64,000 nt of DNA, taken from positions 1 to 64,000 of IMG/VR virus record IMGVR_UViG_3300035183_001487; one strand, 5' to 3'. Below, piece by piece: positions 1-37,458 of the stretch. Each line of letters begins with the position of its first letter. The stretch's first letter is position 1. This stretch comes from a virus. A program made the position numbers and the translations under genes. The notes under the pieces were generated by a model, which searched no databases, was not told the origin of the DNA, and was given only the letters and a program-made list of their open reading frames with translations.

Positions 1-1152
1 TTAACGGCGTTCGCTTTTCTTTTTTGCCACCTGTATGCCGCCGAGCCCACTGGCCTCTGCCACCCGGTTCGCGCCGTCCCGCGCCAGCTCGAGGTTGGGG
101 ACGAGGTAGCGCCTGGTGGTGCGGCCGTCCTTGTGGCGCAGGGCCTCGCCGATGGCCCGCTCCGGCGTCCCGGCCTCGGAGAGCAGGGTGGCGAAGGTGG
201 CGCGGAGGCGGTGGGGCGTGAGCCCCGGGAGGCCCACCGCGGCGCCGGCCGCCTGGACGTAGGGCCGGGTCCATCCCCGGGGGTGCGGGCCGCCCCGCTT
301 GCTCGGGAAGAGCAGGCCCTCGCGCCGCTGCCCGATCCAGGCCTTGAGGAGGGGGAGCATCCAGTCCGGCAGGGCGATGGGCTTCGCCTCCTTGCCCTTC
401 GTGCCGACGACGGGGTCCCATGGGGTGAAGGCCCGGGCCTTCAGGTCCACCAGCTCGATCCGGGCGTGGCGGGCCTCGCTCTCCCGGGCGCCGGTGCCGG
501 CCATGAGGGCGGCGATGCCGAAGGCGTGGGGTGGGGCGTGCTCCTGCAGGTGCTCCAGGAAGGCCCGGAGCTTGGTGGTGGGCAGGTGCGGCCTCGGTTG
601 CTCCTGGACGCGCTCCATCTTCGAGCGGTAGGGCCGGGCCTGGATCTGCCCCAGGTGGATGGCCCAGCCCACGACGCAGTTCAGGGCGCGGAGCAGGGCG
701 TTGCGGCCGCCCGGGGTGTTCTGGCGGCCCAGGTGGTTCTGCTTCTCGAGGAAGGCCGCCAGGGCGGACTCCACGGCCGACGTGGTCAGGTCCGGCAGGC
801 GGGTGTCCAGCAGGTGGGCGAAGTGGCCCTCAATGGCCCAGCGCACGTTGTTCCGGTGGCTCTTGGAGCGGGTGTTCCGGTGGTCCTCGAGCCAGCGGCC
901 CAGGGCCTCCCTCAGCGTCGGCGCGCCGGCGACGGTGGGGATCCCCGCCGCCGCCTTGAGGGCCTCGTCCTTCAGCTGTTTCTTGATGGCCACGGCCACC
1001 GCCTTGCTGGCGGTCCCAGTGGAGCGGTGGACGTGGATGTAGGTCGGCTTGGCTCCCGGCGGGGCGCCCGGCGGCGGCTTGCGCTGGACCTTGAACTTGA
1101 CCATCCAGACGCCGTCGACCAGGGCCAGCCCGTCCTTGAACTTGCCGGCCAC
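1..1152 (-). CDS. int: Phage tyrosine integrase
   Basis: Site-specific recombinase of 383 residues that would integrate and excise the phage genome. An N-terminal SAM-like arm (about 75-170) is followed by a catalytic domain carrying the family residues: Arg in GTGARESEARHAR, a Lys in the VGTKGKEAKP hairpin, the HxxR box in TPHRLRAT, a second His in ALRHKDG and the Tyr nucleophile in RRYLVP. The gene is complete; its TAA stop is the first triplet of the window. The start is GTG, 2 bp after the stop of the membrane protein gene, so it is the last gene of the repressor operon. Putting int behind the repressor suggests expression in the lysogen. Confidence 0.93.
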   Translation of the reverse strand: MAGKFKDGLALVDGVWMVKFKVQRKPPPGAPPGAKPTYIHVHRSTGTASKAVAVAIKKQLKDEALKAAAGIPTVAGAPTLREALGRWLEDHRNTRSKSHRNNVRWAIEGHFAHLLDTRLPDLTTSAVESALAAFLEKQNHLGRQNTPGGRNALLRALNCVVGWAIHLGQIQARPYRSKMERVQEQPRPHLPTTKLRAFLEHLQEHAPPHAFGIAALMAGTGARESEARHARIELVDLKARAFTPWDPVVGTKGKEAKPIALPDWMLPLLKAWIGQRREGLLFPSKRGGPHPRGWTRPYVQAAGAAVGLPGLTPHRLRATFATLLSEAGTPERAIGEALRHKDGRTTRRYLVPNLELARDGANRVAEASGLGGIQVAKKKSERR

Positions 1153-1154
1153 GG

Positions 1155-1565
1155 TCAGTCCAGGCGCATGGCGCGCAGCTCGTCCAGCTGCGAGCGGTAG
1201 TACCAGTCCATCCGGGCCTGCTGCTCGGCGCTGATGGGGAAGACCTGATCAAAGGCCTGGTTGATGGGGATGCCGTCCTTCCGGCTGCGCCGCAGGATCT
1301 CCTCCACCACTGCCCGGTGGTCGTGCTCGATGCCGGAGTGGTTCAGGACCATGTCGACGTAGAGCATGGCGCGCTGCTCGTCCTGGGTGAGCCGCGGCCC
1401 GCGGTCCCGGATGGCCTGGGCTCGCTGGTCAGGGGCCAGTCCGGCGGCACGCACCAGAAGCGGACACCCGACGAGGAACAGCACGGCGGCCGCCGCCGGG
1501 GCGCCGATGAACATCAGGGCCAGTTTCCGGCCGGTGTAGACCTTCCCCCCGACGTCGATCTCCAT
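1155..1565 (-). CDS. Small membrane protein of the lysogeny operon
   Basis: 136 residues, no family recognised. One hydrophobic segment at about residues 15-42 (ALMFIGAPAAAAVLFLVG region) is followed by a charged, helical, probably cytoplasmic or periplasmic domain rich in Arg, Asp and Gln. Its ATG overlaps the repressor stop (TGATG), and a strong GAGGAGG SD sequence lies 6 bp upstream, so translation is coupled to the repressor. Position between repressor and integrase fits a lysogenic conversion or superinfection-exclusion role, but that is inference from context only. Confidence 0.7.
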   Translation of the reverse strand: MEIDVGGKVYTGRKLALMFIGAPAAAAVLFLVGCPLLVRAAGLAPDQRAQAIRDRGPRLTQDEQRAMLYVDMVLNHSGIEHDHRAVVEEILRRSRKDGIPINQAFDQVFPISAEQQARMDWYYRSQLDELRAMRLD

Positions 1566-2509
1566 CACATCCTCCTCACCGCGCACGCCACGCGGCCCAC
1601 GACCTCCAGGTCCTCCCCGCTCTCGGCGCCAACCTCGAAGGGGGGATAGGCCGGGTTCCGGCTGAGGATCCGGATGGATCCCCCTGGCAGGCGCTGCACG
1701 CCCTTGACCAGGAGGCCCTGGCCGTGGCGGAGCAGGAAGGTTCCATCGCCGCGCCGGCTCTCCGGGCGCAGGTCCACGACGACGAGGTCCCCGCTGGACA
1801 GCACGGTTTCCATGGAGTCGCCCTCCACGTGGACAACGGCTGTCTTGCTGGGGTCGAGGCGCAGGCCGTGGCGAAGCCACGCGGTGGAGAACAGCACTTC
1901 GTCGGCGACCTCCTCCACGCCGTTCTCGTAGGCGGGCCCGGCGGCGGCCTTGACGGCGTATACGGGGATGGCCGTGTACCCCTGGGGGACGGCGGCGATC
2001 TCCTCGCGCCGGGCCTTGGCCGCGGTCTTCAGGGCCTGGACGGCGGGCCGGCCCAGCAGCGCCTGGTCCACCGCCTCGGCGTCGGCGCCCTGCCGGATCA
2101 AGGCCTCGCGGACGCGCTGGCTCTCCTGCAGGTTCCGGGGCCCGGCCTGCAGGATGCGGGTCACGGCCTCGGGGCTGAACCCTTCGGCCTGGAGGGCGCC
2201 GGGGGTGTCGGGGTGGGCGCCCAGCAGCGCCTCGCCCACCCGGCTCGTGGCCCACATCAGCCCTTCGCCGTGCCGGAGCCATGGCCAGAGCACCCCGCAG
2301 GCCATGGAGAGCTTCAGGAGGGTCCCCTCCTTGATGTTCCGGCTTTCCGGGCTGTCCTCCGGCGCCTCCCACTTCGCCAACATCCCCTTCCCCACCCCCG
2401 CTTGGGCCTCGAGTTCCGCCCGGCTCAGGCCGGCGGCTTCCCTCGCAAGCCGAATACGCCCACTAATTTGGGACGAATTGGGGAGATTTGATGGATTTTG
2501 ACCTTGCAT
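1565..2509 (-). CDS. CI/LexA-type phage repressor (HTH plus S24 peptidase)
   Basis: Master repressor of 314 residues. An XRE helix-turn-helix lies at about residues 12-60 (RLAREAAGLSRAEL then VGKGMLAKWE). A linker of about 110 residues leads to a C-terminal S24/LexA domain with the serine nucleophile in VEGDSME and a downstream Lys in GLLVKGVQ; an Ala-Gly pair in VKAAAGPAY is a candidate self-cleavage site. Together these imply induction by RecA-stimulated autocleavage. The start at 2509 is preferred because it leaves 64 bp before the divergent antirepressor gene; an in-frame ATG at 2542 is possible. No strong SD precedes either. An operator-like repeat lies inside its first codons, suggesting autoregulation. 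Confidence 0.88.
   Translation of the reverse strand: MQGQNPSNLPNSSQISGRIRLAREAAGLSRAELEAQAGVGKGMLAKWEAPEDSPESRNIKEGTLLKLSMACGVLWPWLRHGEGLMWATSRVGEALLGAHPDTPGALQAEGFSPEAVTRILQAGPRNLQESQRVREALIRQGADAEAVDQALLGRPAVQALKTAAKARREEIAAVPQGYTAIPVYAVKAAAGPAYENGVEEVADEVLFSTAWLRHGLRLDPSKTAVVHVEGDSMETVLSSGDLVVVDLRPESRRGDGTFLLRHGQGLLVKGVQRLPGGSIRILSRNPAYPPFEVGAESGEDLEVVGRVACAVRRM
2464..2483. promoter_or_regulatory. Operator-like 20-mer, copy 1
   Basis: Reads TAATTTGGGACGAATTGGGG, two direct TTGGG-type half sites one helical turn apart. It matches the reverse complement of copies at 3865-3884 (16 of 20) and 27679-27698 (15 of 20). It sits in the first codons of the repressor gene next to the divergent antirepressor start, the usual place for a repressor operator. 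Assignment to this repressor is inference. Confidence 0.45.
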
Positions 2510-2573
2510 CGGGGGTTCTTTGGGGATGTTCAAGCAGCGCATTTCCACGACCACACCACCAATGGGGGGAACC

Positions 2574-3401
2574 ATGGATGGGTCCGAAAGCCTGGCGGGG
2601 CAAGGCCCGCGTGACGCATTGTACCACATGGCGGCGCCGCCGTCACCGCCCTTGGTTGAAAGGTTCAGATTTCAGGGCCGGGAGACCGTCCGGCTGGTCC
2701 TGCGCGACGGCGCGCCCTGGTTCGTCGCCTCCGACGTCTGCGGCGTCCTCGGCATCGTGAACCATAGGGACGCCATCGGCGCCCTGGACCCGGACGAGCG
2801 GGGGCAGTCGGTATTGCCGACCCCCGGCGGCGGGGCCCAGCCCACCAACCTCGTCTCCGAGGCCGGGCTCTACACGCTGATCCTGCGGTGTCGGAAGCCC
2901 CGCGCCGTGTCCTTCCGCCGCTGGGTGACGCATGAAGTGCTGCCCAAGATCGCGCGGACGGGGGAGTACCGGGCGCCCCAGGCCCCGGCCCACGTGGTCC
3001 CGCAGTCCTTCGCCGAGGCGCTCCGGCTGGCGGCCACGCTGGAGGAGGAGCGCGCCGCGCTCTCCACGAAGGTGGCGGTCCTGGCCCCGAAGGCCGCGGT
3101 GGCCGACGCCCTGACCGACGCCAAGGGTGCGGGATCCCTGCGGGCGACCGCCCAGGTGCTCGGGACGGGCCGCCAGCGCCTCATCGACTGGCTGCGCCAC
3201 CGCCGGATCCTCCTGCCCAAGGAGGCGCTGCCCTACCAGGAGCACCTGGACCTCGGTCGCTTCCGGGTGGCGGTGTCCGTGTACCGGGACGACTACGGGG
3301 AGGAGCACGTCTGCCGTAAGACCCTCGTGACCGGGAAGGGGCTGGTCTGGCTCCAGGGCCTCTGGGCCGCCGACCACGCGACGGAAAGGGCGGCTTCGTG
3401 A
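2574..3401 (+). CDS. BRO-N / KilAC antirepressor
   Basis: Phage antirepressor of about 275 residues. A BRO N-terminal DNA-binding domain (residues about 30-125: FRFQGRETVRLVLRDGAPWF, ASDVCGVLGI, VSEAGLYTLILR, RRWVTHEVLPKI) is joined by a helical linker to a C-terminal KilAC/ANT domain (GSLRATAQVLGTGRQRL, DWLRHRRIL). Such proteins usually counter the phage repressor or act as early regulators. The start at 2574 has a GGGGGGA SD at 4 bp; ATG 2628 is an alternative. Divergent from the repressor and first gene of a three-gene operon whose members overlap. Confidence 0.85.
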   Translation: MDGSESLAGQGPRDALYHMAAPPSPPLVERFRFQGRETVRLVLRDGAPWFVASDVCGVLGIVNHRDAIGALDPDERGQSVLPTPGGGAQPTNLVSEAGLYTLILRCRKPRAVSFRRWVTHEVLPKIARTGEYRAPQAPAHVVPQSFAEALRLAATLEEERAALSTKVAVLAPKAAVADALTDAKGAGSLRATAQVLGTGRQRLIDWLRHRRILLPKEALPYQEHLDLGRFRVAVSVYRDDYGEEHVCRKTLVTGKGLVWLQGLWAADHATERAAS

Positions 3402-4381: not shown

Positions 4382-4647
4382 TGCTGCCGCCGCCCTTCAC
4401 TGGCCCTGAACTGATCCCCGTGGCGAACCGCCTGGACCGGGGCCTCGACTGCTCGCGCTGGGAGTCCATGCGGCTCCTCGCCACCCTTCGCCTCGCGCTG
4501 GGCGCCCTCCTGGCGGAGCGGGTGGGCTCGCCCCACAGCCCCGCCGTGCTGGTTGACCACGACCTCCTCAACTTCGGGTGCCACCCCGCCGTGCGTCAGC
4601 AGGACCGCGGCCGGATGGTGCCTCCCTCTCCGTCGGAGCCCCGATGA
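4381..4647 (+). CDS. Hypothetical protein
   Basis: 88 residues. N-terminal helical part (RWESMRLLATLRLALGALLA) and a Pro-rich tail. Coupled at both ends: TGATG with the previous gene and ATGA with the exonuclease gene. No family recognised; probably a small accessory protein of the recombination operon. Confidence 0.6.
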   Translation: MLPPPFTGPELIPVANRLDRGLDCSRWESMRLLATLRLALGALLAERVGSPHSPAVLVDHDLLNFGCHPAVRQQDRGRMVPPSPSEPR

Positions 4648-5786
4648 CGAACACCACCACCACCGAGCGCCCCGTCGGGACGCTCCTGTCGAAGGCCGCC
4701 CTGAATTCCGCCCTGCTCGAGCGGTTCCACGGCGGCAAGACCTTCGAGGACCGCGAGACCTACGTCGGCGCCTCGGAAGTCGGCACCTGCCTGCGCCTCG
4801 TGGCGTGGCGCAAGCTCCACCCCGCCGAGTCGCAGATCACCGACCCCAAGAGCGCCGGCCGCATGCGCGCGGGCACGATCCTCGAGAACGAGTTCGTGCA
4901 GATGGTCCGCCTGGCCCTGGGCGGCAAGGTCCGGGAGACGGGCGGCGCGCAGGCCGAGATCGTGGTGCCGGACGCCCCCATGCGCCTCCACCCGGACGGC
5001 CGCATCCTCGCCTCCGCCATCGCCGATCTGGCGGGCCACGAGATCCATGTCCTCGGCGTCGACGGGAAGCCCATGGTGCTCGACGCGCTGCCCGAGGGCG
5101 ACGGCGCCCTGGAGATCAAGACGGCGGCCTCCTACCAGATGCGCCGCTTCCTCCGCGAGGGCCTGTCCCTGGCCTACAAGGACCAGACCCAGTGCCAGAC
5201 GGGTTCCCAGGGCCTGAAGTGGGGCCTGCTCGTGCTGGGCAGCCGCGAGAACCTCGAGGACGTCGCCGTCTTCTTCTGGCATGCCGATCCCGACGCCTAC
5301 GAGGCGGCGAAGGAGCGCGCCCGCAGGACCATGGCCGCCGTCGAGAAGATCCAGGCGGGGATCCTCGAAGAGCAGGCTGGGCTCCCTGAACCCGACACCG
5401 AGCGCGGCTACTGCCAGTACTGCCCCATCGCCGACACCTGCCCGGCCCTGGTCGCCGCAAAGGCCGTCGGCGATGCCGCACCGATCCCGCCCGACCTCCT
5501 GCCTGACGTCGAGGCGCTGGCCGAGACCTACCTGGAGCTGAAGCCCCAGGCCGATGAATTCGAGGAGGCCAAGAACACCTTGCGGGACCTCCTCATCAAC
5601 GCTGGCGTCACCAAGGGCGACGTGCTGCCCGACGGCACGAAGATCTCCATGACGCTCAACAAGGGCAAGACCACCGCCGACGCGAAGGCTCTGGCCCGCA
5701 AGTACCCCACCGCCGCTGCTGACCCCGAAGTCGTGAAGACCGGGGATCCCTACTTCGTCATGAAGATCACGCCCACCAAGGCCTAG
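4644..5786 (+). CDS. Cas4/RecB-type PD-(D/E)XK exonuclease with Fe-S cluster
   Basis: 380 residues. Nuclease motifs appear in order: Glu in YVGASEVGTCLR (about 43), Asp in LHPDGRI, and the ExK core in GALEIKTAASY (about 160). Four cysteines typical of the Cas4/AddB iron-sulfur nucleases are present: one in the SEVGTCLR motif and three in CQYCPIADTC. Such enzymes resect DNA ends to make 3-prime tails for phage recombination. The C-terminal 110 residues form a helical extension. The next gene is its likely annealing partner. The start at 4644 gives the ATGA overlap; earlier in-frame ATG 4578 lies inside the previous gene. Confidence 0.85.
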   Translation: MTNTTTTERPVGTLLSKAALNSALLERFHGGKTFEDRETYVGASEVGTCLRLVAWRKLHPAESQITDPKSAGRMRAGTILENEFVQMVRLALGGKVRETGGAQAEIVVPDAPMRLHPDGRILASAIADLAGHEIHVLGVDGKPMVLDALPEGDGALEIKTAASYQMRRFLREGLSLAYKDQTQCQTGSQGLKWGLLVLGSRENLEDVAVFFWHADPDAYEAAKERARRTMAAVEKIQAGILEEQAGLPEPDTERGYCQYCPIADTCPALVAAKAVGDAAPIPPDLLPDVEALAETYLELKPQADEFEEAKNTLRDLLINAGVTKGDVLPDGTKISMTLNKGKTTADAKALARKYPTAAADPEVVKTGDPYFVMKITPTKA

Positions 5787-8627: not shown

Positions 8628-9589
8628 ACTGGACCATTCACCAGGGTGACGCACTGGAAACGCTGCGGGGACTGCCCTCAGAGTCCGTCCATTGCGTCGT
8701 GACCTCACCGCCCTACTGGGGCCTGCGGGACTACGGCCACGATGGGCAGATGGGCCTTGAGGAGACACCCGAGGCCTACGTCACCGGCATGGTGGAGGTG
8801 TTCCGCGAGGTCCGCCGGGTGCTCCGTGCGGACGGGACGCTCTGGTTGAACATCGGGGACAGCTACGCCAGCAGCACCAAGGGAAGCGGGGGCACTGGAA
8901 AAAGTACGCTCGGCGCCGCCAGTGGTGGGAACGGCATAAGCGAGGCAGGCATCCTTCGTTCGCAGAAGCGGCAAGCAATGGAAGCTCGGAAGGTCGCTTG
9001 TGGCCTACCAGAGAGGAACCTCGTCGGCATCCCTTGGCGCCTCGCCTTCGCCCTCCAGGCTGATGGCTGGTATCTGCGCCAGGACATCATCTGGCACAAG
9101 CCCAACCCCATGCCGGAGAGCGTGACCGACCGTTGCACGAAGGCGCACGAATACCTGTTTCTGCTCACCAAGGGGGAGCGGTACTACTTCGACCACGAGG
9201 CCATCAAAGAGGACGCCGTGCGCGGGGCGGCAGGTTCGTCCTTCAACACCGGCAAGACCGCCGAACACCAACTTGGCCGGGCCAGCACCGCCGAGCGGAT
9301 GGAGGACGGGAAGCGCAACCGCCGCGACGTATGGACCATCCCGACGAAGCCCTTCAAGGGCGCCCATTTCGCGGTGATGCCCGAGGCCCTGGTCGAGCCC
9401 TGCATCCTGGCCGGATGCCCCTCCGGCGGGACCGTCCTGGATCCCTTCACGGGCTCGGGGACTGTGGGGGTGGTGGCCCGGCGCCTGGCCCGCGGATTCG
9501 TCGGCATCGAACTGAACACGAAGTACGCCCGCATGTCGCTCCGGCGCATCAACGCGGCCCCCATGGGCTTGGATGGGCTCGCCTCATGA
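8624..9589 (+). CDS. DNA methyltransferase (TSPPY type)
   Basis: 321 residues. Motif IV TSPPYWGLRDYG and motif I DPFTGSGTVGVVARRL with FVGIELN are in the permuted beta-class order; TSPPY is most common in N4-cytosine methylases. A central region (about 80-230) would be the target-recognition domain. No restriction partner is nearby, so this is an orphan phage methylase, probably protecting against host restriction or marking DNA. Last gene of the operon that begins at 4130. Confidence 0.85.
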   Translation: MNWTIHQGDALETLRGLPSESVHCVVTSPPYWGLRDYGHDGQMGLEETPEAYVTGMVEVFREVRRVLRADGTLWLNIGDSYASSTKGSGGTGKSTLGAASGGNGISEAGILRSQKRQAMEARKVACGLPERNLVGIPWRLAFALQADGWYLRQDIIWHKPNPMPESVTDRCTKAHEYLFLLTKGERYYFDHEAIKEDAVRGAAGSSFNTGKTAEHQLGRASTAERMEDGKRNRRDVWTIPTKPFKGAHFAVMPEALVEPCILAGCPSGGTVLDPFTGSGTVGVVARRLARGFVGIELNTKYARMSLRRINAAPMGLDGLAS

Positions 9590-9595
9590 CCCCCC

Positions 9596-9655
9596 TTGCG
9601 CCCCCCGCTGGTGGAGTTAACCTCCACACCCCGGGCCGAAATCCCGAACAGGAGT
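9596..9655 (+). promoter_or_regulatory. Promoter with 5-prime CCGAAA-loop hairpin for the replication operon
   Basis: TTGCGC (9596-9601), 17-bp spacer, AACCTC (9619-9624). Overlapping the -10 is a perfect dyad GTGGAG/CTCCAC (9611-9627), a possible operator. The transcript would start with hairpin CGGG / CCGAAAT / CCCG (9632-9646), followed directly by AACAGGAG, the SD of an 11-codon leader frame. The loop starts 40 nt after the -35 box, as in the other members of this family. Confidence 0.5.
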
Positions 9656-9660
9656 AGTGC

Positions 9661-9696
9661 ATGACCAGCCGTAGGCCTGCGAACGGAGGGTGGTGA
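9661..9696 (+). CDS. 11-codon leader peptide
   Basis: Reads MTSRRPANGGW then TGA. It has its own good SD (AGGAG, 9650-9654) and its stop overlaps the ATG of the replication gene (TGATG). The SD GGAGGG of the replication gene lies inside the leader codons, so translation of the leader should control access to it. Function as a coupling peptide is inferred. Confidence 0.45.
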   Translation: MTSRRPANGGW

Positions 9697-10805
9697 TGGC
9701 GCGTCCCGGCTTCATCCACCACCGCAAGTTCAAGCGCCTTTCCAGGGCGCTCGGCTCGCCGGCGCTGGCGAGGGGGTGCCTAGAGATGCTCTGGGACACC
9801 TGCTATGAGGCTGGCGACGACTACCTCGGAACCGCCGAGGACGTGGAGCTATCCGCCTACTGGGATGGGGAGCCCGGGGTCCTGTGTGAAGCGCTGCTCA
9901 CCGCTGGCGGGGAGGGGAACCCTGGGTTCATCGAGGAGGTGTCCGGGCGCCCCGGCCACTACCGGGTCCACGACCTGTACGACCACGCCCCCGAGTACGT
10001 CCAGAAGCGGATGGCCCGGGAGGCCGAGCGCATCGCCAAGGGGCAGACGATCTCCGAAATCCGGAGTGCTGCCGGGAAGCGCGGGCGGCAGTCCCAGCTC
10101 GCCGCCGCCCTGGCAAACGTCGGGCAAACGTCGGGCAAACGTCGGGCAAACGGCGGGCAAACGGCGGACACTTGCCCGCAAAAACGGGCAAACGGCGGGC
10201 AAGCGGCGGCAAACGGCGGCACTCCCGCACCCGCACCCGCACCCACCACCCCAAAGAATCCTCCTCCGCTTCGCTACGGAGGTTGCTCCGAGGGCTCCTC
10301 GGAGCCGCCCGCGGCGAAGGCTTTGGACCCGAAATCGCCAGGAAGGCCCCTGGAAGCCCTGAAGCGACCCCAGGGGCCCGCTACCCCCGCCGGGAGTCCC
10401 GTCCCTGGCCTTCCTGGCCCGGTTCCTCTCAACGGCGGGGCCGTCGTGGCCCTGGTCCCAGCCCTCCAAGGCGCCCAGGTCCCGATCTCCCAGTCCCAGG
10501 TGGACGAGTGGGCCAAGGCCTACCCCGCGGTGGACGTGCCCCTGGAGATCCGGCGGGCCATCGCCTGGCTGAACGCCTCCCCCACCCGCCTGAAGACCCC
10601 GAGGGGTGTCCCCAGGTTCCTCGTGAGTTGGTTCGGGCGCACCCAGGACCAGGGCGGCTCGAAGGGGGTCCCCCCGAAGGGCAAGGGCCCCGCCTTCGCC
10701 TTCGCTCCCCCGGGCCCGAAGGGCATTGACCCCGACCTCGCCCACCTGCTGAGGCCCGATGAGATCGACTTCGAGTACCCCCCCGAACCCGAGGAGGCAT
10801 CGTGA
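9696..10805 (+). CDS. Replication initiation protein with origin iterons in its gene
   Basis: 369 residues. The N-terminal domain (about 1-130: GFIHHRKFKRLSRALGS, LWDTCYEAGDDYLG, GHYRVHDLYDHAPEYVQKRM) is a winged-helix module like those of phage replication initiators. A low-complexity Ala/Gly/Pro linker follows, then a C-terminal domain (about 270-330: VDVPLEIRRAIAWLNASPTR, RFLVSWFGRTQ) like the helicase-loader-binding part of phage O/DnaD-type proteins. The linker region is encoded over 11-bp DNA repeats, as in the lambda O gene. ATG chosen by TGATG coupling and SD GGAGGG. Confidence 0.65.
   Translation: MARPGFIHHRKFKRLSRALGSPALARGCLEMLWDTCYEAGDDYLGTAEDVELSAYWDGEPGVLCEALLTAGGEGNPGFIEEVSGRPGHYRVHDLYDHAPEYVQKRMAREAERIAKGQTISEIRSAAGKRGRQSQLAAALANVGQTSGKRRANGGQTADTCPQKRANGGQAAANGGTPAPAPAPTTPKNPPPLRYGGCSEGSSEPPAAKALDPKSPGRPLEALKRPQGPATPAGSPVPGLPGPVPLNGGAVVALVPALQGAQVPISQSQVDEWAKAYPAVDVPLEIRRAIAWLNASPTRLKTPRGVPRFLVSWFGRTQDQGGSKGVPPKGKGPAFAFAPPGPKGIDPDLAHLLRPDEIDFEYPPEPEEAS
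10111..10217 (+). repeat. 11-bp iterons, candidate replication origin
   Basis: Eight copies of GGGCAAACGKC (or one-base variants) start at 10111, 10122, 10133, 10144, 10155, 10186, 10197 and 10208. Each block is spaced exactly 11 bp; the gap between blocks (10166-10185) holds a diverged unit and an A-rich spot (GCAAAAACG). Because 11 is not a multiple of 3 the encoded peptide changes at each copy, so selection acts on DNA, not on protein. Location within the initiator gene matches lambdoid origins. Confidence 0.65.
10263..10305 (+). repeat. Two tandem hairpins beside the iterons
   Basis: CCTCCG / CGGAGG (10263-10282, 8-nt loop) and GCTCCGAG / CTCGGAGC (10285-10305, 5-nt loop) are perfect inverted repeats 2 bp apart, 45 bp after the last iteron. 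Possibly part of the origin, such as a priming or unwinding site. Confidence 0.4.
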
Positions 10806-11119
10806 GCAGCCTGTATCCCGAGTACCGCGCCGCCGGGCGCTGCGGTGACTGCGGCGCCGACCCTGTGCCGGGCCGTGCCTTCTGCGCGGCGCATGCCGCC
10901 GCCCGCGCCACCCGCCAGCGGAAGTGGAACCCACGGCGCACCGTGCAGCGCCGGGCCTGGGCACGCCTGGGTCGGTGCATCGACTGCGGGTCCATCCCCG
11001 TCCCCGGCCGCTCCCGCTGCGGCTACCACCTGGAGCAGGCGGCAGATCGCATGGCCGCCCTGCGCAACCGCCAAACCCGCGGCGCCGAGAACGCCGCCAA
11101 CCCACAGGAGAATTCATGA
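10802..11119 (+). CDS. Tandem zinc-binding motif protein
   Basis: 105 basic residues with two near-identical metal sites: CGDCGADPVPGRAFCAAH (about 14-31) and CIDCGSIPVPGRSRCGYH (about 59-76). Each has CxxC followed by C and H, and the spacing inside each unit is equal, so the protein arose by internal duplication. Arg-rich helices lie between and after the sites. Probably binds nucleic acid; exact role unknown. GTG start overlaps the replication gene stop. Confidence 0.65.
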   Translation: MSSLYPEYRAAGRCGDCGADPVPGRAFCAAHAAARATRQRKWNPRRTVQRRAWARLGRCIDCGSIPVPGRSRCGYHLEQAADRMAALRNRQTRGAENAANPQENS

Positions 11120-11730
11120 GCCTCTACCAAGGCGGGCTCGGCCTCCGGCGCTTCCTGGTCCTGGGCCCCGTGCCCGAGGACGATGCGCTGGCCGAGGGCC
11201 TCGCTGAGAACCGCTTCCGCCCGTTCCAGGACGGCCTCGAGGAGGAGCGCGCCGGCTGGTGCGACTGGCGGAACCCCCTCATCATCCCCCCCGACGCGGC
11301 CTGGGTCCGCCAGGATCGGTTCGCCGTCTTCGGGCTGCGCATCGACACGCGCCGGGTTCCGTCCGCCCTCCTGAAGGCCCACGTGGACCTGCGCATCCGC
11401 CAGCTCATGGCGGAGAAGGACCTTGCCTTCATCGGCAAGGAGGCGCGGATCTCCATCCAGGACGAGGTCAAGGCGGAACTGCTCCACAAGGTGGTTCCGG
11501 CGATGCGCGTCTCCGACCTCGCCTGGGACCTGAAGGGCGGCGTCCTCTGGACCACGGCGACGTCTGGCCGGGCGGTGAGCGCCGTCATCGACCTCTTCAT
11601 GAAGTCCTTCGGGGCCGAGCTTCAGCCCCTCCACCCGCTGCTGCTGGCGGGCCGCGTGGCCCCCGAGCTTCCGGTGGAGACGCTGATGGCGCTGGACCCC
11701 ATGGACCTCGAGCTTGATGAGGTGGAGTGA
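11116..11730 (+). CDS. RdgC-like protein, N-terminal part
   Basis: 204 residues. The stretch RRFLVLGPVPEDDALAEG, AENRFRPFQDGLEEERAGW, DAAWVRQDRFAVFGLRIDTR and VKAELLHKVVPAMRVSDLAW resembles the N-terminal and middle regions of RdgC, a ring-forming DNA-binding protein linked to recombination. It ends near AVIDLFMKSFGAELQPLHPL, where full RdgC proteins continue. The gene at 12098 looks like the missing C-terminal portion, with one small gene between. SD AGGAG before the ATG. Confidence 0.5.
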   Translation: MSLYQGGLGLRRFLVLGPVPEDDALAEGLAENRFRPFQDGLEEERAGWCDWRNPLIIPPDAAWVRQDRFAVFGLRIDTRRVPSALLKAHVDLRIRQLMAEKDLAFIGKEARISIQDEVKAELLHKVVPAMRVSDLAWDLKGGVLWTTATSGRAVSAVIDLFMKSFGAELQPLHPLLLAGRVAPELPVETLMALDPMDLELDEVE

Positions 11731-13833: not shown

Positions 13834-14235
13834 GTGTCCGTCCAGCTGTACCGTTCGCTCGACTTCCTCAAGCTGTTCAGCCGCGTCTTGACGGGCAAAG
13901 AGTACGACGATGCCCAGATCACCGAGGCCCTCGTGCGCACCTGGGAGGAGGCCCCGGCCGACACCCGCAAGAACGGGTGGCACATCCGGCACGCCTCCAT
14001 CCGCTACCTCGGCGTGATCTACACGAACCGCGCGACGGCCCGCCTGGTCGCGCGCTGGTCGATCCAGGCCATGGGCGGGGACACGCCGCTGGCCCACGCC
14101 TACCCCTTGTTCCGGGCCCTCGTGGAGCTTCGCGGCGTGCGCCCGTGGAACCGGGACTACTACGTCTCCAACGCCTTCGGCCACCGCCTCCGCCGCGGGG
14201 AGCGCCGGCGCCCTGATCCACAGGAGTCCTCATGA
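13834..14235 (+). CDS. Hypothetical protein, first gene of the ParB-methylase operon
   Basis: 133 residues from GTG 13834, eight bases after the promoter hairpin. Helical protein with conserved-looking LDFLKLFSRVLTGKEYDD, NGWHIRHASIRYLGVIYTNR and PWNRDYYVSNAFGHRLRR. Family not recognised. Overlaps the following methylase gene by 4 bp. Confidence 0.55.
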   Translation: MSVQLYRSLDFLKLFSRVLTGKEYDDAQITEALVRTWEEAPADTRKNGWHIRHASIRYLGVIYTNRATARLVARWSIQAMGGDTPLAHAYPLFRALVELRGVRPWNRDYYVSNAFGHRLRRGERRRPDPQESS

Positions 14236-15659
14236 CCTCCAGCGCGAAGAAGCGGGGCGCCAAGCCCGCCGCGAAGAAGCAGCACCCGGCCCGAAAGCCG
14301 ACAGGGAAGAAGCCGAAGGAGCCCGAGACGACCGCCGCCGTCGCCGATCTGGCGGAGCCGCGGATGGTCCGCCTCCGCGTCTCGGACATCCTGCCCTGGG
14401 ACGGGAACCCCCGCGAGCACTCCGCCGAGCAGATCCGGCTGCTGAAGAAGAGCCTCGGGGCCTATGGCCTTGCCTCGCTGCCCGTCGTGCAGGCCGGGAC
14501 GCGGAAGCTGATTGCCGGGCACGGGCGGCTCGAGGCCCTCCGGGCCATGGGGCACACCGACCGCGTGATCCCGGTCCTCGAGGTCGACCTGGACGACGAC
14601 CAGGCCAAGGCCTACGCCGTCACCGACAACCGCCTGACCGACATGAGCACCTGGAACCTCCCGGCCCTCCGGGAGATCCTGGTCGAGCTGGACAACGGCG
14701 CCTTCGACATCGAGTTGACCGGCTTCACCCCGGACGCGATGGCCGAGCTGTTCGACATCGACCAGGGCCCGCAGTCCGGCATCCAGGCGGGGAAGGATCC
14801 CGATTCGGCGCCACCCCTGGCCACCACGGCCCCCAAGACCCAGCGCGGGGACCTCTACCTGCTGGGCCGCCATCGCCTGGTCTGCGGGGACGCGACGGTC
14901 AAGGCTGATGTGGACCACCTGATGGCCGGCCACGTGGCCGATCTGGTCATCACCGACCCGCCCTACGGGGTGAGCTACGAGTCCTCCGCGGCAGGGCTCA
15001 AGGCCTCGGGGAAGGCCTCGATCCTGAACGACGCGCTGGAAGGCGAGGCCTTCCAGGAGTTCTTGGACGCCGTCTTCGAGAACTACGCCCGCGTCTCGGC
15101 GCGGCATGCCGCCTTCTACGTCTTCTACGCCAGTCGGTTCCACGTCGCCTTCGAGACGGCGATGCGGCGCGCCGGCCTGGACATCCGCGCCCAGATCATC
15201 TGGGCCAAGAACGCCGCCTCCTTCGGCTTCTCGCAGTACAAGTGGAAGCACGAGCCGGTGCTGCTGGGCGCCAAGGAGGGCGCGACGCCCCTCATCTACG
15301 TCCCGGCCCACGAGACGGCTTTCTACGCCTACCAAGCCGGCTCCTCCCCCGTCTGGGAGGGGGACCGCTCGCAGACCACGGTCTGGACCGTCGCCCGCGA
15401 GACGGGCTACACGCACCCCACGCAGAAACCCGTGGCCCTCCTCCGGCGCCCGATGCTCAACAGCTCCCGGGTGAAGGGCCTGGTCGTGGACTTCTTCGGC
15501 GGCTCGGGCTCGACCATGATCACCGCCGAGGACACCGGGCGGACCTGCTTCACCCTCGAGCTGGACCCCAAGTTCTGCGACGTGATCGTGGCCCGCTGGG
15601 AGGACCTCACCGGCAGGCGGGCGACCCACATGCGGGGCGGGAAGGAGGTCAAGCGATGA
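14232..15659 (+). CDS. ParB/Srx-domain plus DNA methyltransferase fusion
   Basis: 475 residues. A Lys-rich tail (1-35) precedes a ParB-like N-terminal nuclease domain (about 44-150: ILPWDGNPREHSAEQIRLL, LIAGHGRLEALRAMG, the GHGR box). The C-terminal methylase has motif IV TDPPYGVSYE (about 240), KNAASFGFSQYKWKHEP, and motif I DFFGGSGSTMITAE with FTLELDPKF. DPPY fits N6-adenine or N4-cytosine methylation. This fusion is common in phages, where it probably modifies DNA against restriction. Second methylase in the window. Confidence 0.88.
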   Translation: MTSSAKKRGAKPAAKKQHPARKPTGKKPKEPETTAAVADLAEPRMVRLRVSDILPWDGNPREHSAEQIRLLKKSLGAYGLASLPVVQAGTRKLIAGHGRLEALRAMGHTDRVIPVLEVDLDDDQAKAYAVTDNRLTDMSTWNLPALREILVELDNGAFDIELTGFTPDAMAELFDIDQGPQSGIQAGKDPDSAPPLATTAPKTQRGDLYLLGRHRLVCGDATVKADVDHLMAGHVADLVITDPPYGVSYESSAAGLKASGKASILNDALEGEAFQEFLDAVFENYARVSARHAAFYVFYASRFHVAFETAMRRAGLDIRAQIIWAKNAASFGFSQYKWKHEPVLLGAKEGATPLIYVPAHETAFYAYQAGSSPVWEGDRSQTTVWTVARETGYTHPTQKPVALLRRPMLNSSRVKGLVVDFFGGSGSTMITAEDTGRTCFTLELDPKFCDVIVARWEDLTGRRATHMRGGKEVKR

Positions 15660-30900: not shown

Positions 30901-33220
30901 CCCGCTCGTAGACCTCCCCGGGGTCCACGGGCTTGACGAGGCGGGCCTGGCCCTCCGCGTTGAGGTGCAGCACGGCCTCCCCGGCCTCGTGGTCGATCCG
31001 GTAGTCCCCTTCCTGCAGGCCCATGGCCGCGGCGGTCTGGACGGCGCGCTCCGGCGTCATGGCGCCCAGCGGGACGGTCATCACGTCCTGGTCCTTGCCC
31101 CGCATGGCAGCGATGAGGGCGGCCCGGGCCTCGAGGCGGCCCAGCGCCCCGCCGAGCGTCCGGCGCGCCTCCTTCAGGGCGGCCAGCTTGTTCTTCTGCA
31201 TCTCCACGGCGGTCTGCAGGTCCCGGGGCGTGGCTGCGAGGTCCGCGGCGATGCTGTTGGCCTCCTGGCGCAGGGCGGCGGCCTGGTCCATGACGGCGGG
31301 CAGGCCCTCTTGGTCCTTCAGGTGGTGCTCCTCGAGGGCCTGGAGGATGGACGCCTGGTCCTCGGGCTCGAAGTTCGCCCGGAGGCCCCGGGCCAGGACC
31401 TGCGCCGCGGCCTCGGGGCCCAGGGCCTCGATCACGTCCCGGTCCATCATCCCCTGGCCGACGGAGGCCAGGGCCACCTCGTGCAGGGCGTCGTAGGCCG
31501 CGGCCCCGCGGACGGCGTGCAGCCCGTCCATGGCCTTGGGGTCGGAGTCCGGCGCCTCGCCCTCGGGGTAGGCTTCGCCGACCTCACGCAGCAGGCCCTG
31601 GACGTGGCCCGACAGCATCTGCTCATAGATCCCCTGCTCGACCGTCCCGCTGACGTCGTCGTCCACCAGCATCTGGAAGCCGCCTTCGAAGGTCCGGGGC
31701 TTGCCGGTGCTGGCCTTGTAGGCCTCGCGCAGGGTGGCCCGGGCCTTCAGCAGGTCCGCCAGCCCCTGGTTCGCCTTCAGGGCCTCCTTGGCGGCCTCCC
31801 GCAGGGCCCCCGCCTTCTGCGCCGCCAGCTCCTTGGACGCGACGTGCGCCTTGACCGCGGCGTCGTGGGCCGGCTTCCCGGCGCGCTCCTTGATGTCCGC
31901 CACCGCGTCGACCAGCTTCTCCGCCGACAGCCCCGCGGCCTCCGCCCGCTTCGCCAGCTCCCGGCGGTACCCCGGGCCCGCCGGGTCCGTCTCGTGCACG
32001 AGTTCCTCCACGCCCACGGGCGTGATGCCCCCGCCGATCTGGGCGAGGCCCGCGCCGGCGCGCGCCTGGGCGTCCAGCAGGACCTTGCGCTCCGCCTCCT
32101 TCACGAGCTTGTGGGCCAGGGCGAGGCGCTTCCGGTGCTCCGCCTTGGGGTCGGCCTCCGCCTGGGCCCCCGCGCCGGGGCCCGCGGCCTCCTCGCCCTC
32201 GGGCTTGGCCTGGTCCAGCAGGGCGGGGTGGTCCTCCTGGATCCCGGCGTGCTGGAAGACGTCCCGGATGAAGGACTCCTCGTTCTTCTGCTTCGCCTCC
32301 CGGGCCTGGCCCTTGGCCTGCTTGTGCGCCTCCCGCTCCTCGGGCGTCATGGCCTGCAGCTTGGCCTTCTCGTCAGCCTTGCGCTGGGCGGCCCGCTCCC
32401 GGGCCTCGGCCTGGTACTGCCCGGGCTCCTTCAGCCCGTGGAGCCGGAGGCCGTTGAGCTTGCCGCCCGCCCCGCCGACCACCCGGTAGACGCCCTTGGT
32501 GCCCTTCACCGGCTGGACCTTGATGGGGTGGCCCTCGCTGCCCGGCCCGCCGGGGTGGACGGTGATCCACCGGGATCCGTCGGCCTCCGCCTCGGCAAAC
32601 CCGGCCTTGGCCGCGGGCCGGGTGATGGGCCCGTTCCCCAGCCAGTCCTTGAAGTCGTCCATCGTGCAGTAGGAGATGGCCCGGAAGCCCTTCCACCCGG
32701 GGCTGAAGGAGTCCAGGTACCCCTGGCGGGCCTCCTCCTCCGTGTGGAAGCCGAGCATCACCTTGTGCTCATCGAAGTCCCCGGTGGCGGGGTTCACCTG
32801 GTCCACGATCCAGACGTGCGGGCTCTCGGGATCGGGGCCGATGAAGACGTCCACGCCGTCCCCGTCGGCGCCCCAGGTGCCCTTGGCGAAGCCGTAGTGG
32901 TGGGCCATCTGGGCGGCCCAGGGCCGGCCCTTGGCGTCCTTGCCCCTCCGCCAGCTGCCCCGGGGGTTCTCGACGGCGATCTGGATGCCCTGGACGACGA
33001 CGTGGCCGCGGGGGTAGGCGTTGACGGATCCGTCCGGGTTGGGCCTGGCCGGGGGCTGGGCCTTGGCGGCCTGGGCGTCCAGGTCCGGGGTGGTGAGCGG
33101 CTTGATCTTGGCCGTCAGGTCGGGCGTCCAGCCCACCACGGTCCAGCCCAGGTCCTGGCCCTGCTCATCCAGGAAGGCCGGGGCCTCGGCGGGGGGAATG
33201 GTGGGGGCGGCGTAGGTCAT
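27914..33220 (-). CDS. Polyvalent protein: pyrophosphatase-like domain plus SNF2-type helicase
   Basis: About 1768 residues, by far the largest gene. Residues about 60-200 resemble the inorganic-pyrophosphatase-like domain of phage polyvalent proteins (GSWRRGKDAKGRPWAAQMAH, WGADGDGVDVFIGPDPES, DEHKVMLGFHTEEEA). Near 240 lies ITVHPGGPGSEGHPIKV and then GGAGGKLNGLRLHGLK. A long charged helical region (about 290-1230) follows. The C terminus is a superfamily 2 helicase: Walker A GPGSGKTGIML (about 1275), VDEAHGG (about 1409), ATGNPLKND, and motifs V/VI SDAGATGLNLQRG and QQRTARIHRLGQDQD. Known polyvalent proteins enter the cell with the DNA and attack or protect. Start 33220 preferred; ATG 33268 possible; neither has a good SD. 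Confidence 0.8.
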   Translation of the reverse strand: MTYAAPTIPPAEAPAFLDEQGQDLGWTVVGWTPDLTAKIKPLTTPDLDAQAAKAQPPARPNPDGSVNAYPRGHVVVQGIQIAVENPRGSWRRGKDAKGRPWAAQMAHHYGFAKGTWGADGDGVDVFIGPDPESPHVWIVDQVNPATGDFDEHKVMLGFHTEEEARQGYLDSFSPGWKGFRAISYCTMDDFKDWLGNGPITRPAAKAGFAEAEADGSRWITVHPGGPGSEGHPIKVQPVKGTKGVYRVVGGAGGKLNGLRLHGLKEPGQYQAEARERAAQRKADEKAKLQAMTPEEREAHKQAKGQAREAKQKNEESFIRDVFQHAGIQEDHPALLDQAKPEGEEAAGPGAGAQAEADPKAEHRKRLALAHKLVKEAERKVLLDAQARAGAGLAQIGGGITPVGVEELVHETDPAGPGYRRELAKRAEAAGLSAEKLVDAVADIKERAGKPAHDAAVKAHVASKELAAQKAGALREAAKEALKANQGLADLLKARATLREAYKASTGKPRTFEGGFQMLVDDDVSGTVEQGIYEQMLSGHVQGLLREVGEAYPEGEAPDSDPKAMDGLHAVRGAAAYDALHEVALASVGQGMMDRDVIEALGPEAAAQVLARGLRANFEPEDQASILQALEEHHLKDQEGLPAVMDQAAALRQEANSIAADLAATPRDLQTAVEMQKNKLAALKEARRTLGGALGRLEARAALIAAMRGKDQDVMTVPLGAMTPERAVQTAAAMGLQEGDYRIDHEAGEAVLHLNAEGQARLVKPVDPGEVYEREVALAIKGGQLDQEAWLPRGFANRMVLRQDSEISQPMELRRKLAITPGMPDTDILGSVREHVALRVADGERPTDILSDLFSATALDRVPPEHQPAFLQAVQDTFPLQEVVRDDKGEPVWERDQHGELLKDTKGNLVPKTRMRPADSLLPQFQAMAEDHLKALGLGPEAALHAQMADTDAPGFHEALHRTLAEDPRLAAAFIPPAELGHEHQAGLRDFFYREIAKKEPGGAKAAAEAHAEAMKAVGPEPPKFEEGGGLFGDEEPVESPIWQAWAARKAAAEEQLAAQASTPWADYVQSMGGLVQAQEAVQEVMRGRFAVAFSQHHGRAAGQAFRVGKVGMQHGEAFTKATGTPEEQEALRAQRAKELASVRTRTATGKYQAEEGGLLERAAKAREAKLAQAQAQAGLFGMEDFEEPAAEPQEGAPEGPKAASIPTPGAGERLTLGATLEAQIRQAMPGASQAFAGMKRGTKVADGLRMDGKYVNQQRAVKAITKLKRVGLFLGPGSGKTGIMLGALSEMHADGNLKKAILAVPSVVQAQFGAEAIRFLDPKTGIRVHAKPGESFEERMAAYRDPERHAVVVTHQTLRDDTLKILGDHVGKQGQELREWVSSAHTKDLAAAVKAAFTKAGVDFNALMVDEAHGGLDRLGKEDSTFSRILDAHSHNADHVVMATGNPLKNDVSEVWSDLNKLDPHRYPEDSRDEFMRRFGGDAALARRSLAQQLTRYWYNGRVEVGVDAHHMHDQVPLSPSQRQTVDDVELAAGKLRTGSAEERVSWAHVLAPEAFAGKPEEEHATIAEEVTRSVGTFREAALNRAINLDPAGGKMAEHVRIAKEAKAEGKPVVIFARNLDAVAAIHKNLEAAGLGVVSLTGKDSSKDKGLKAGKFQRGEADVIVLSDAGATGLNLQRGKVLIHHDIPTTAMIHQQRTARIHRLGQDQDVEVHTLMADHPWERTNRKRVETKAALGEIFESTEGYLDDTGLAGTLREIRARKNQAHAA

Positions 33221-33353
33221 GGGGTGGGCTCGGGGTGGACTTGCGCGGCGGCGGGTGGGGTGCCACATTGGGGGTTCAGTGCTCCCGCGGGGAAGGAAAT
33301 ATCCAGACGGAACCGCGCGTAGGCCCGCCCGAGGGTAACCCTTTGGCGGGCCA

Positions 33354-33857
33354 TCACTTTTTCTCCGCGGTATTTGGGTTCTGAATCTGGATCTCCACAG
33401 GGGCGGCCTCTCGCGTCTCTTCGGGACGATTCCCGGCCATCTCGTACCCCGTGACCACCCAGGTTGGGACCTTGTCGGTGGGGAGGCCTTCCTCTTCCCA
33501 GAAAGGGGAAAGGGTCACCTGGTGCTTGCCGGACGTCGCCCAGATCTGGGGGCCCGTGTGCCGCTTGTTGTCCTTTATCGGCGGCTCCTTCCGTGGGTCC
33601 CCGTGGACCATGCATTCAGCGATCCCATCCAGAGCGGACTGCACGTCCTGGCCCTTCGCCACGCGCTCCCGGATGATGTGCTGCAGCCGGGCGAAGGTCA
33701 GGCCGATGGGGCCCAGGCGCATGTGCATGGTCGTGAGGTAGGGCGGCTTCCCACCGCCGGCCCGGAGGGCGGCGATGGCGGCCTTGGTCTTGGTCACGCG
33801 GGTGGCCTGGGTCTGGTCGAATTCCGAGGGCTCCACCCATCGCACATGGGCGCGCAC
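33354..33857 (-). CDS. Possible PBECR-type nuclease, effector-like
   Basis: 167 residues from GTG 33857 (GGAGG SD about 9 bp before). The pattern LGPIGLTFARLQHIIRERV, then a middle strand IAECMVHGDP, HQVTLSPFWEEEG and VPTWVVTGYE is like the phage Barnase-EndoU-ColicinE5/D-RelE-like (PBECR) fold, with His in LQHI as a candidate catalytic residue. These domains occur fused in or next to polyvalent proteins. Assignment is tentative. The 122 bp before it (33858-33979) hold nothing recognisable. Confidence 0.4.
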   Translation of the reverse strand: MRAHVRWVEPSEFDQTQATRVTKTKAAIAALRAGGGKPPYLTTMHMRLGPIGLTFARLQHIIRERVAKGQDVQSALDGIAECMVHGDPRKEPPIKDNKRHTGPQIWATSGKHQVTLSPFWEEEGLPTDKVPTWVVTGYEMAGNRPEETREAAPVEIQIQNPNTAEKK

Positions 33858-33979
33858 CGGGTGCAGGCCTCCGCGGCCGTCATGGCTGAAATGGGCCGAG
33901 ACGGTGATCGCCCGTTTGGCGTTCGGGTTGGCTTTGAGGACGGAGCGTGCGCCTCCGGGATCGCCCGGCGCGGAGGCGC

Positions 33980-35143
33980 TCAGGCTTTTCCCGATGATCC
34001 CTTGGCGACGCCGCGGCCAGCCCTCGCCTGGTGGTACTCCATGGCGGCCTTGTGCGCCTCGAACGCGCGCCCGTGGGGGGCGCCCTCGTCGTCCTCGTCG
34101 GCGTGGAGGTCCATGTGGTGTTCGGCGGCGGCCTTGTGCGCTTCCGCGGCCTTCGCGTGCGCGTCTGGGCTCCCGTCCTTCTTGGCGGCCTCGGCGGCTC
34201 GGTAGGCTTCGGTGCCGAGCCGGATACCTTCCTTGTCCTTGGTCATGTGGGATTCCTGCATCGCCCCCAGGCTCCGACGGTCGTCATCCTCCTGGTTCGC
34301 ATGGTCCTTTGCGGCTGGCGCCTTCGCCGGGCTCTCCCCGCCGGCCGCCGCCGTCTCGTGCATCGTCCCGTAGGCCAGGGCGCCGTGGTGGTCCGCCATG
34401 GCGTGGTGCTCCTGGGCCAGGGCCTGGTGCTCGGGAGCCTCGTCCTTGCCGCTCACCTTGGCGGCCTCGGTGTGGATGCGCGCCGCATTCCGGTGCAGGC
34501 GCTCTGCGGCGATGTGGCTCTCCATGGAGTCGGAGAGGTGGGCCCGGTTGGTGGCGGAGTGGGCGGTGGTGGTGGCGTTGTGGGCGGTGCTGAAGGGGTG
34601 GCGGTTGTTCCGGCCCGCGGCGAGGCGCCCGGATCGGGTGGTCAGGCCCTCGCTCCGGCGGTTGGCCGTGTCGTAGTCCTGGACGTGGACCAGCTTCCCG
34701 TGGACGTTGCGCGTGTGGGCGGCGACGTGGGCCTTCATGATCGGCTCCCCGGAACCCTCCCCGGCTTCGTCCTCCTCCGGCGTGGGGGGCGGCGGGGGGC
34801 CGCCGGCGTCCATGCCGCCCTCGAGGTCCTCCTCGCCCTTCAGGATGGGCCGGGGCAGGGCCTCCTCCTCCTGCCCGCCCTGGGTCGCGTCGCTGAGGTC
34901 CTTGTCCATCTGGGGGATCATCAGCGCGTGGGCGTCCCCCGCCATGGGGCCCATGACGGCCTTCAGGATGCTGTGGACGTCCTGGCTGTCGCACCCTCCC
35001 TCCAGGGCCGCCTTGCAGGCCTCGCGGAGCGCCACGCCCTCCGGCATCGTCCCGAGGTCCTTGGTCCGGTTGAAGGGGCGGCTGCGCTCGCGGAAGGCGG
35101 CCGACGCGGCGGTGTTCACGGCGGTGAGCAGGGGCTTGGTCAT
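33980..35143 (-). CDS. Tagged His/Ala-rich repeat protein with possible internal start
   Basis: 387 residues. The first 135 are helical with a Pro/Glu linker. At 136-158 is the shared tag (MKAHVAAHTRNVHGKLVHVQ), followed by His/Ala-rich helical repeats (AEAHKAAAEHHMD, EAHKAAMEYHQA). An in-frame ATG at 34738 begins exactly at the tag and has GGGGAG 6 bp upstream, so a 252-residue tag-first product is plausible and the first part may be a separate protein joined in frame. Follows gene 35147 by 3 bp in the same operon. Confidence 0.6.
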   Translation of the reverse strand: MTKPLLTAVNTAASAAFRERSRPFNRTKDLGTMPEGVALREACKAALEGGCDSQDVHSILKAVMGPMAGDAHALMIPQMDKDLSDATQGGQEEEALPRPILKGEEDLEGGMDAGGPPPPPTPEEDEAGEGSGEPIMKAHVAAHTRNVHGKLVHVQDYDTANRRSEGLTTRSGRLAAGRNNRHPFSTAHNATTTAHSATNRAHLSDSMESHIAAERLHRNAARIHTEAAKVSGKDEAPEHQALAQEHHAMADHHGALAYGTMHETAAAGGESPAKAPAAKDHANQEDDDRRSLGAMQESHMTKDKEGIRLGTEAYRAAEAAKKDGSPDAHAKAAEAHKAAAEHHMDLHADEDDEGAPHGRAFEAHKAAMEYHQARAGRGVAKGSSGKA

Positions 35144-35146
35144 GGG

Positions 35147-37333: not shown

Positions 37334-37399
37334 GGTCCTCGTCTCCCGGGCTCGCCCCAAGGGTGCCCCGCGCGGCGCTAGGCCCCGTCGAAGCCACGG

Positions 37400-37431
37400 C
37401 ACTATCCCAGGGGGGTTGCCAGCCAGCAACC
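37400..37431 (-). promoter_or_regulatory. CCACTATCC / G-run / inverted-repeat element, copy 2 (leftward promoter candidate)
   Basis: On the plus strand CACTATCC, CA, six G, then stem GGTTGC, loop CAGCCA, stem GCAACC. On the minus strand this reads inverted repeat, C run, then GGGATAGTG, whose GATAGT looks like a -10 box. It sits 67 bp before gene 37333; between 37334 and 37458 nothing else is seen. Confidence 0.5.
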
Positions 37432-37458
37432 GCCGCCCGGCGCTGGCCCGGCGACGGT

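Follow-up and report, generated by a model that had tools for sequence, protein, structure and literature searches.

A probable iteron-type replication origin embedded in the initiator gene of a temperate-like phage

The window analyzed here, a 64,000-nucleotide (nt) stretch of a 67,780-bp IMG/VR virus record (IMGVR_UViG_3300035183_001487), carries a gene for a putative replication initiator, the middle of which contains an array of short direct repeats (iterons), followed by a C-rich tract of short repeats and by two hairpins. An in-frame GTG at 9690 lies just 5' of the initiator ATG at 9696. The features of the locus are as follows.

9696..10805, plus strand: replication initiator gene, 369 amino acids, ATG at 9696
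9696..10064, plus strand: predicted N-terminal winged-helix domain, residues 1-123, the last helix running on to approximately residue 145
10112..10167, plus strand: iteron block 1, five GGCAAACGKCGG copies in 11-bp phase
10125..10436, plus strand: codons of the predicted disordered linker, residues 144-247
10172..10191: inverted repeat TTGCCCG-CAAAAA-CGGGCAA between the iteron blocks, an inverted half iteron plus the start of copy 6
10187..10219, plus strand: iteron block 2, three copies with spacings of 11 and 10
10224..10250, plus strand: C-rich short-repeat tract, CCCGCA three times and then CCCACCACC
10263..10282: hairpin 1, CCTCCG-(8)-CGGAGG, 6 bp
10285..10305: hairpin 2, GCTCCGAGG-GCT-CCTCGGAGC, 9 bp
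10443..10655, plus strand: folded C-terminal domain, residues 250-320

The array consists of eight copies of GGCAAACGKCGG on the plus strand, which start at positions 10112, 10123, 10134, 10145, 10156, 10187, 10198, and 10208 and are spaced by 11, 11, 11, 11, 31, 11, and 10 bp. The 31-bp gap between the blocks corresponds to approximately three helical turns. Only the copy at 10198 has a mismatch (GGCAAGCG). The original prediction had described eight repeats in two blocks, all in 11-bp phase; the number of copies was confirmed, whereas the last spacing turned out to be 10 bp. When one mismatch was allowed, these eight were the only matches in the 64 kb, where 1.3 were expected and 0 of 100 shuffles reached 8. 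A 12-base version of the motif was found at the same eight places only in the whole 67,780-bp record. Self-matching at a distance of 11 bp reached 32/33 over 33 nt, compared to a maximum of 23 among 2000 codon shuffles. The codon phases of the eight copies are 2, 1, 0, 2, 1, 2, 1, and 2, which bears out the earlier claim that the repeats do not keep the reading frame. Since the iterons cycle through all three frames, it is the DNA and not the protein that is conserved, and this speaks strongly against a protein-level cause. Such a cause would be a low-complexity, flexible linker that was expanded by slippage. The encoded segment is predicted to be disordered, and tandem expansion of 11-bp units is a plausible source of new copies, but a period of 11 shifts the frame with each copy and thus yields different peptides. 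We regard this explanation as extremely improbable.

Directly 3' of the last iteron, from 10224, lies CCCGCACCCGCACCCGCACCCACC. The C-rich tract CCCGCACCCGCACCCGCACCC at this position, which was absent from the original prediction, is the sole copy in the window. Two perfect hairpins had been proposed downstream, and both are present, hairpin 1 being a stem of merely 6 bp with an 8-nt loop. Folding of the single-stranded DNA gave z values of -2.6 and -3.1. Among 300 codon shuffles, a hairpin equal to the one at 10285-10305 occurred in 26, and a close pair of hairpins in 7. Because the best hairpin is unremarkable when considered alone (26/300), the case for the hairpins rests on their conserved placement in other genes. 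A terminator scan gave a single terminator-like site, which coincides with hairpin 1 on the minus strand and is at chance level, and no Rfam family was found for the region. Iterons, tract, and hairpins together occupy codons 139-203; nearly all of the origin-like DNA is therefore located within the linker codons.

The N-terminal domain (NTD) is predicted with good confidence to be a winged helix. Its AlphaFold2 model, with a predicted local distance difference test score (pLDDT) of 84.5, follows the order helix-helix-strand-helix-helix-strand-strand, and its top viral structural match was named "Replisome organizer" (E of 2e-5, TM of 0.69). In most of residues 144-247, pLDDT falls below 50. 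The folded C-terminal domain beyond them is common to a Ruminococcus phage replisome organizer, Vibrio phage VaK, and others. At the sequence level, two PHROGs annotated as "replication initiation protein" matched weakly, PHROG 9474 with an E of 0.011 over residues 6-142 and PHROG 1032 with an E of 0.072. No Pfam family, RepA_N included, was matched at E values up to 0.1, and the PDB yielded no sequence relative of note, with two chance-level matches only. That the gene encodes a replication initiator is thus indicated indirectly, by the winged-helix model, the weak matches to PHROGs 9474 and 1032, and the presence of dnaC- or dnaB-type genes next to it in relatives.

These relatives were obtained with an NTD profile search, which gave six viral loci, two of them representing the same gene, and with a genome scan, which added one Acidobacteria metagenome-assembled genome (L002); in the phage collection, no relative was found for the NTD alone. 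The NTDs of the viral relatives are 43-63% identical, and the relatives, L002 included, keep iterons with an AACG core at the corresponding place, in most cases in 10-11-bp phase: GCAAACGAGCA at 11 bp in L261, a locus that was also found by the GCAAAC iteron scan described below, GACAAACGGCG at 11 bp in L264, and CGAACGGCGY at 10 bp in L265. L002, L262, and L263 contain irregular AAACG repeats. The encoded linker does not align among the relatives although the iterons persist, and the iteron motif sits in different frames, which also argues against a linker expanded by slippage. Directly 3' of the iterons, a C-rich tract is present in six of the seven genes, window included. Its unit is 6 nt long in the window, L002, and L261, 7 nt in L263, 5 nt in L265, and mixed in L262. 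This change in unit length points to selection on the DNA, and the existence of 5- and 7-nt units is likewise not what a protein-level feature would predict. The gene that follows, checked in three cases, encodes a DnaC-like loader in L261 (phrog_50, 1e-17) and DnaB in L263 (phrog_19, 8e-70), and a Stenotrophomonas phage-plasmid gene with a weak NTD match has an annotated dnaB next to it. As a separate observation, the C-rich tract holds four or more CCC runs, at the same place also in L002, L261, L262, L263, and L265, which would allow a G-quadruplex to form on the minus strand next to the iterons.

So that the choice of genes would not depend on repeats, we gathered 80 viral loci with a profile built from the C-terminal domain alone; 45 of these loci were non-redundant. 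Repeat lags were called significant at a p of ≤0.01 against 200 codon shuffles. Lag 11 was significant in 24 of the 45 genes, lag 22 in 19, and lag 10 in 14; lags 9, 13, 17, 19, and 23 reached significance in 1, 1, 2, 0, and 2 genes, respectively. Of 121 neighboring genes from these loci, 2 had a significant lag 11. This confinement of the 11-bp periodicity to initiator genes is a further point against slippage within a linker. A 5-7-nt tract (lag 5, 6, or 7) was detected in 30 of the 45 genes; among the 28 genes that had a tract as well as iterons, the tract was the downstream element in 26. The best hairpin was located 20-140 nt 5' of the C-terminal domain in 22/45 genes (11.6 expected, P = 0.0005), and in 31/44 genes the 50 bp of lowest stability lay 60-170 nt 5' of that domain (6.3 expected). 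The AT skew of this low-stability zone was raised (0.355 versus 0.149, p = 1.6e-7). In these genes, it is therefore usual for iterons to be followed by a low-stability tract of short repeats, a hairpin, and the C-terminal domain, in this order. Iteron sequences varied widely across the set, which led us to drop the notion of a single universal GCAAAC iteron. Two side observations were made. The hairpins that precede the C-terminal domain in L270-L342 often contain GGAG...CTCC, for example, GTCCGGAGCTACAAAACTCCGGAC and GTGCGGAGACAAGCTCCGCAC; the window has the similar GCTCCGAG...CTCGGAGC, and there may be a shared sequence element. In Vibrio phage VaK (L017, 2413-3405), an initiator-like gene has approximately five in-frame 24-bp repeats (CCGAAAACGGTACTTTGAATAGGC, encoding the peptide RPENGTLN) in place of the 11-bp array.

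The repeats could alternatively be operators, through which the initiator or another early regulator controls expression of the initiator gene, with the origin located elsewhere. Winged-helix proteins are often repressors, many of which are among the structural matches of the NTD, and the sites lie inside an early operon; the same repeats could also serve autoregulation. They are, however, situated approximately 420 nt into the gene, and no promoter-like sequence was found in 9500-11200. Moreover, unrelated initiator genes show a tract, a low-stability zone, and a hairpin in this same order, and the genetics of phage 80alpha, discussed below, place an origin there. On balance, control of the gene without origin function appears quite unlikely.

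A wider view of origin-like repeats was provided by scanning viral contigs for a hexamer occurring three times in 11-bp phase (loci L011-L139, L140-L259, and L349-L417). GCAAAC returned at least 120 stretches, GACAAC at least 120, and CAGACA 73. Many of the stretches lie mid-gene in initiator-like proteins; those with GCAAAC or CAGACA often fall in PHROGs for DnaD-like loaders, replication initiation, primosomal proteins, or replisome organizers. From 89 non-redundant open reading frames of the GCAAAC set, 66 were picked, which include, in overlapping counts, 25 with DnaD-like loader phrog_2514, 16 with primosomal phrog_9327, 13 with replication-initiation phrog_270, and 4 with phrog_9474; in Pfam, 14 matched DUF1376 and 8 DUF6291. 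The CAGACA set contained many of the same families. Since a subset was picked and two of the totals are lower bounds, these counts are illustrations and not frequencies. GACAAC was rejected as a negative control, for it also falls in initiator-like genes, as does CAGACA. Hexamer scans are thus not motif specific, and the fair control is the other genes of the same loci. As the 11-bp-phase scan largely retrieves phage initiator genes, it looks like a usable origin finder.

Several results weigh against an origin at this site. The PHROG support for the initiator protein is weak (E of 0.011), and searches of its own 67,780-bp record for DnaB and DnaC families found nothing, which bears on helicase recruitment. 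Each of the hairpins is weak relative to codon shuffles. Regarding the opening region of this GC-rich phage, 10210-10300 has a GC content of 63-70% with no AT-rich tract beside the iterons; when the window is ranked by stability, the 60 bp from 10240 reach only the lowest 7%, and the initiator gene itself has its least stable 50 bp outside the tract, at 9776-9830 (minimum at approximately 9780). GC skew, originally put forward as a check, makes no turn at 10.2 kb, though gene-direction effects dominate it.

Judging from its integrase, CI-like repressor, and Ant-type antirepressor genes, the source virus looks like a temperate phage. The surrounding genes include the following.

1-1152, minus strand: integrase
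1565-2629, minus strand: CI-like repressor
2520-3398, plus strand: Ant-type antirepressor
4644-5786, in the early rightward run: RecE-like exonuclease (phrog_434)

The early rightward run also holds genes for an endonuclease, a DNA methyltransferase, the initiator, a small open reading frame, and an RdgC-like protein. The proximity of the RecE-like exonuclease, endonuclease, and RdgC-like genes would fit another cis element of DNA metabolism, such as a recombination hotspot, a packaging site, or a late-replication switch, instead of a theta origin. A precedent is oriR of phage SPP1, which is described as a second initiator-binding site with another role (PMC3485210; PMC5499656). Against this stands the finding that the record contains a single such array and that it is located within the initiator gene, as is the case with experimentally placed origins. 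A cis element of this kind is, in our estimate, very improbable. Elsewhere in the window, 14232-15659 encodes a 475-amino-acid protein in which a ParB-like N-terminal domain is fused to a DNA methyltransferase domain, and the leftward gene block at 31000-38000 displays a very strong AT skew (to -0.52) that far exceeds its GC skew.

Considering all of the above, we think it highly probable that 10112-10305 is the replication origin of the phage, placed inside its own initiator gene, and that it represents an intragenic iteron-type theta origin with a lambda-like mode of working. The winged-helix NTD would bind one molecule per 11-bp iteron. The spacings of 11 and 31 bp would place all iterons on roughly the same face of the helix, where the bound molecules could assemble into a nucleoprotein filament or wrap. 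The strands would open just downstream, in the short-repeat and hairpin segment 10224-10305, and the C-terminal domain, tethered by a linker that the origin DNA itself encodes, would recruit the replicative helicase or its loader. That the initiator binds the iterons, that the strands open there, that a helicase is brought in, and that the origin is active in this phage is inferred.

The putative origin in the window is very probably one example of a common, little-described layout of phage origins. A more far-reaching proposal, which we make tentatively and consider rather doubtful, is that 10-11-bp iterons, a 5-7-nt tract, and a hairpin in linker codons constitute a general cis module of phage origins, kept across many initiator families (including DUF1376 and DUF6291) and many hosts while every sequence changes, and with a tract that is kept for its repetition and not for its AT content, as in this and other GC-rich phages. 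A repetition-based tract would point away from simple melting: either single-stranded DNA would be bound in a register-dependent manner, as with DnaA-trios, or a G-quadruplex or hairpin would be the signal. Among the open-access papers searched, none was found that describes a general phage origin module combining 11-bp phase, short-repeat tract, and hairpin. The layout may be partly covered in subscription literature, notably in the review that Weigel and Seitz published on phage replication modules in 2006. If our interpretation holds, a hexamer occurring three times in 11-bp phase in a mid-sized early gene would locate both origin and initiator in a large fraction of uncultured temperate phages, and a function would be suggested for DUF1376/DUF6291-type proteins. 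It also poses the question of how an origin opens with a C-rich, and not an AT-rich, element beside its iterons.

The closest known systems include Staphylococcus phage 80alpha. ORF20 of this phage carries an annotated origin (9674-9899). An ORF20 mutant was not complemented in trans, and the authors of that work inferred an origin embedded in the gene (PMC5499656). Like the window gene, ORF20 contains repeats, a tract, and a hairpin in the same order: its A/T tract, which is the 50-bp stretch of lowest stability in ORF20 (gene nt 381-430), is followed by the hairpin GTCGGG-CAA-CCCGAC, and a DnaC-like gene comes next. It differs in repeat unit and sequence (30-bp lag) and in the A/T trinucleotide-like character of its tract. 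In SPP1, oriL lies within gene 38 (PMC5499656). Full-length tblastn detected no similarity of the window protein to the replisome organizers 80alpha ORF20 and SPP1 G38P. The rep gene of TP901-1 has an A-rich low-stability segment and no 11-bp signal. Initiators with DUF1376, DUF6291, DnaD-like, or Phage_rep_org_N domains carry mid-gene iterons in 11-bp phase, but their NTDs are assigned to other Pfam or PHROG families and their iteron sequences are different.

In the RepA_N family, origins inside rep are known. The plasmid initiators of pSK41 and pTZ2162 and PLE RepA bind iterons through a winged-helix NTD, and RepA_N NTD structures (4pql, 5kbj, and 4pt7) are among the best matches to our model (Z of 5.2-5.4, root mean square deviation of 2.9-3.2 over 81-83 residues). 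These values are tied with those of many other, unrelated winged helices, and Pfam RepA_N was not matched.

In lambda O, the N-terminal domain binds DNA and the C-terminal part contacts the helicase loader. Multiple iterons and an AT-rich tract are located in the middle of the O gene (PMC7466680), so that lambda and the window share an iteron array that lies mid-gene in the initiator gene and has an opening region, in the window a candidate one, downstream of it. Lambda has four annotated 18-bp iterons with a spacing of 20-24 (repeat lags of 20 and 24 in the O gene), an AT-rich tract, and the P loader gene next, whereas the window has eight 11-bp, one-turn repeats, a C-rich tract, hairpins, and no loader found in the record. 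Full-length tblastn against the phage collection at E values up to 1 matched Vibrio phages and one Ruminococcus phage, with no lambdoid phage among the matches listed, and O-like PHROGs were not among the initiator matches up to an E of 0.1. We do not claim membership in the lambda O family, because the iterons differ in size and no AT-rich tract accompanies them. Of the lambda-O arrangement originally proposed, kinship with lambda O was thus not borne out (iteron size and phase, AT-rich tract, loader), while comparative evidence favors an iteron origin in the initiator gene. Of the features that mark this class, the window gene has direct repeats inside a probable initiator gene and out of codon phase, and the arrangement is supported by the winged-helix NTD, the weak initiator matches, the loader or helicase genes next to it in relatives, the iterons that outlast the linker, and the layout of 80alpha.
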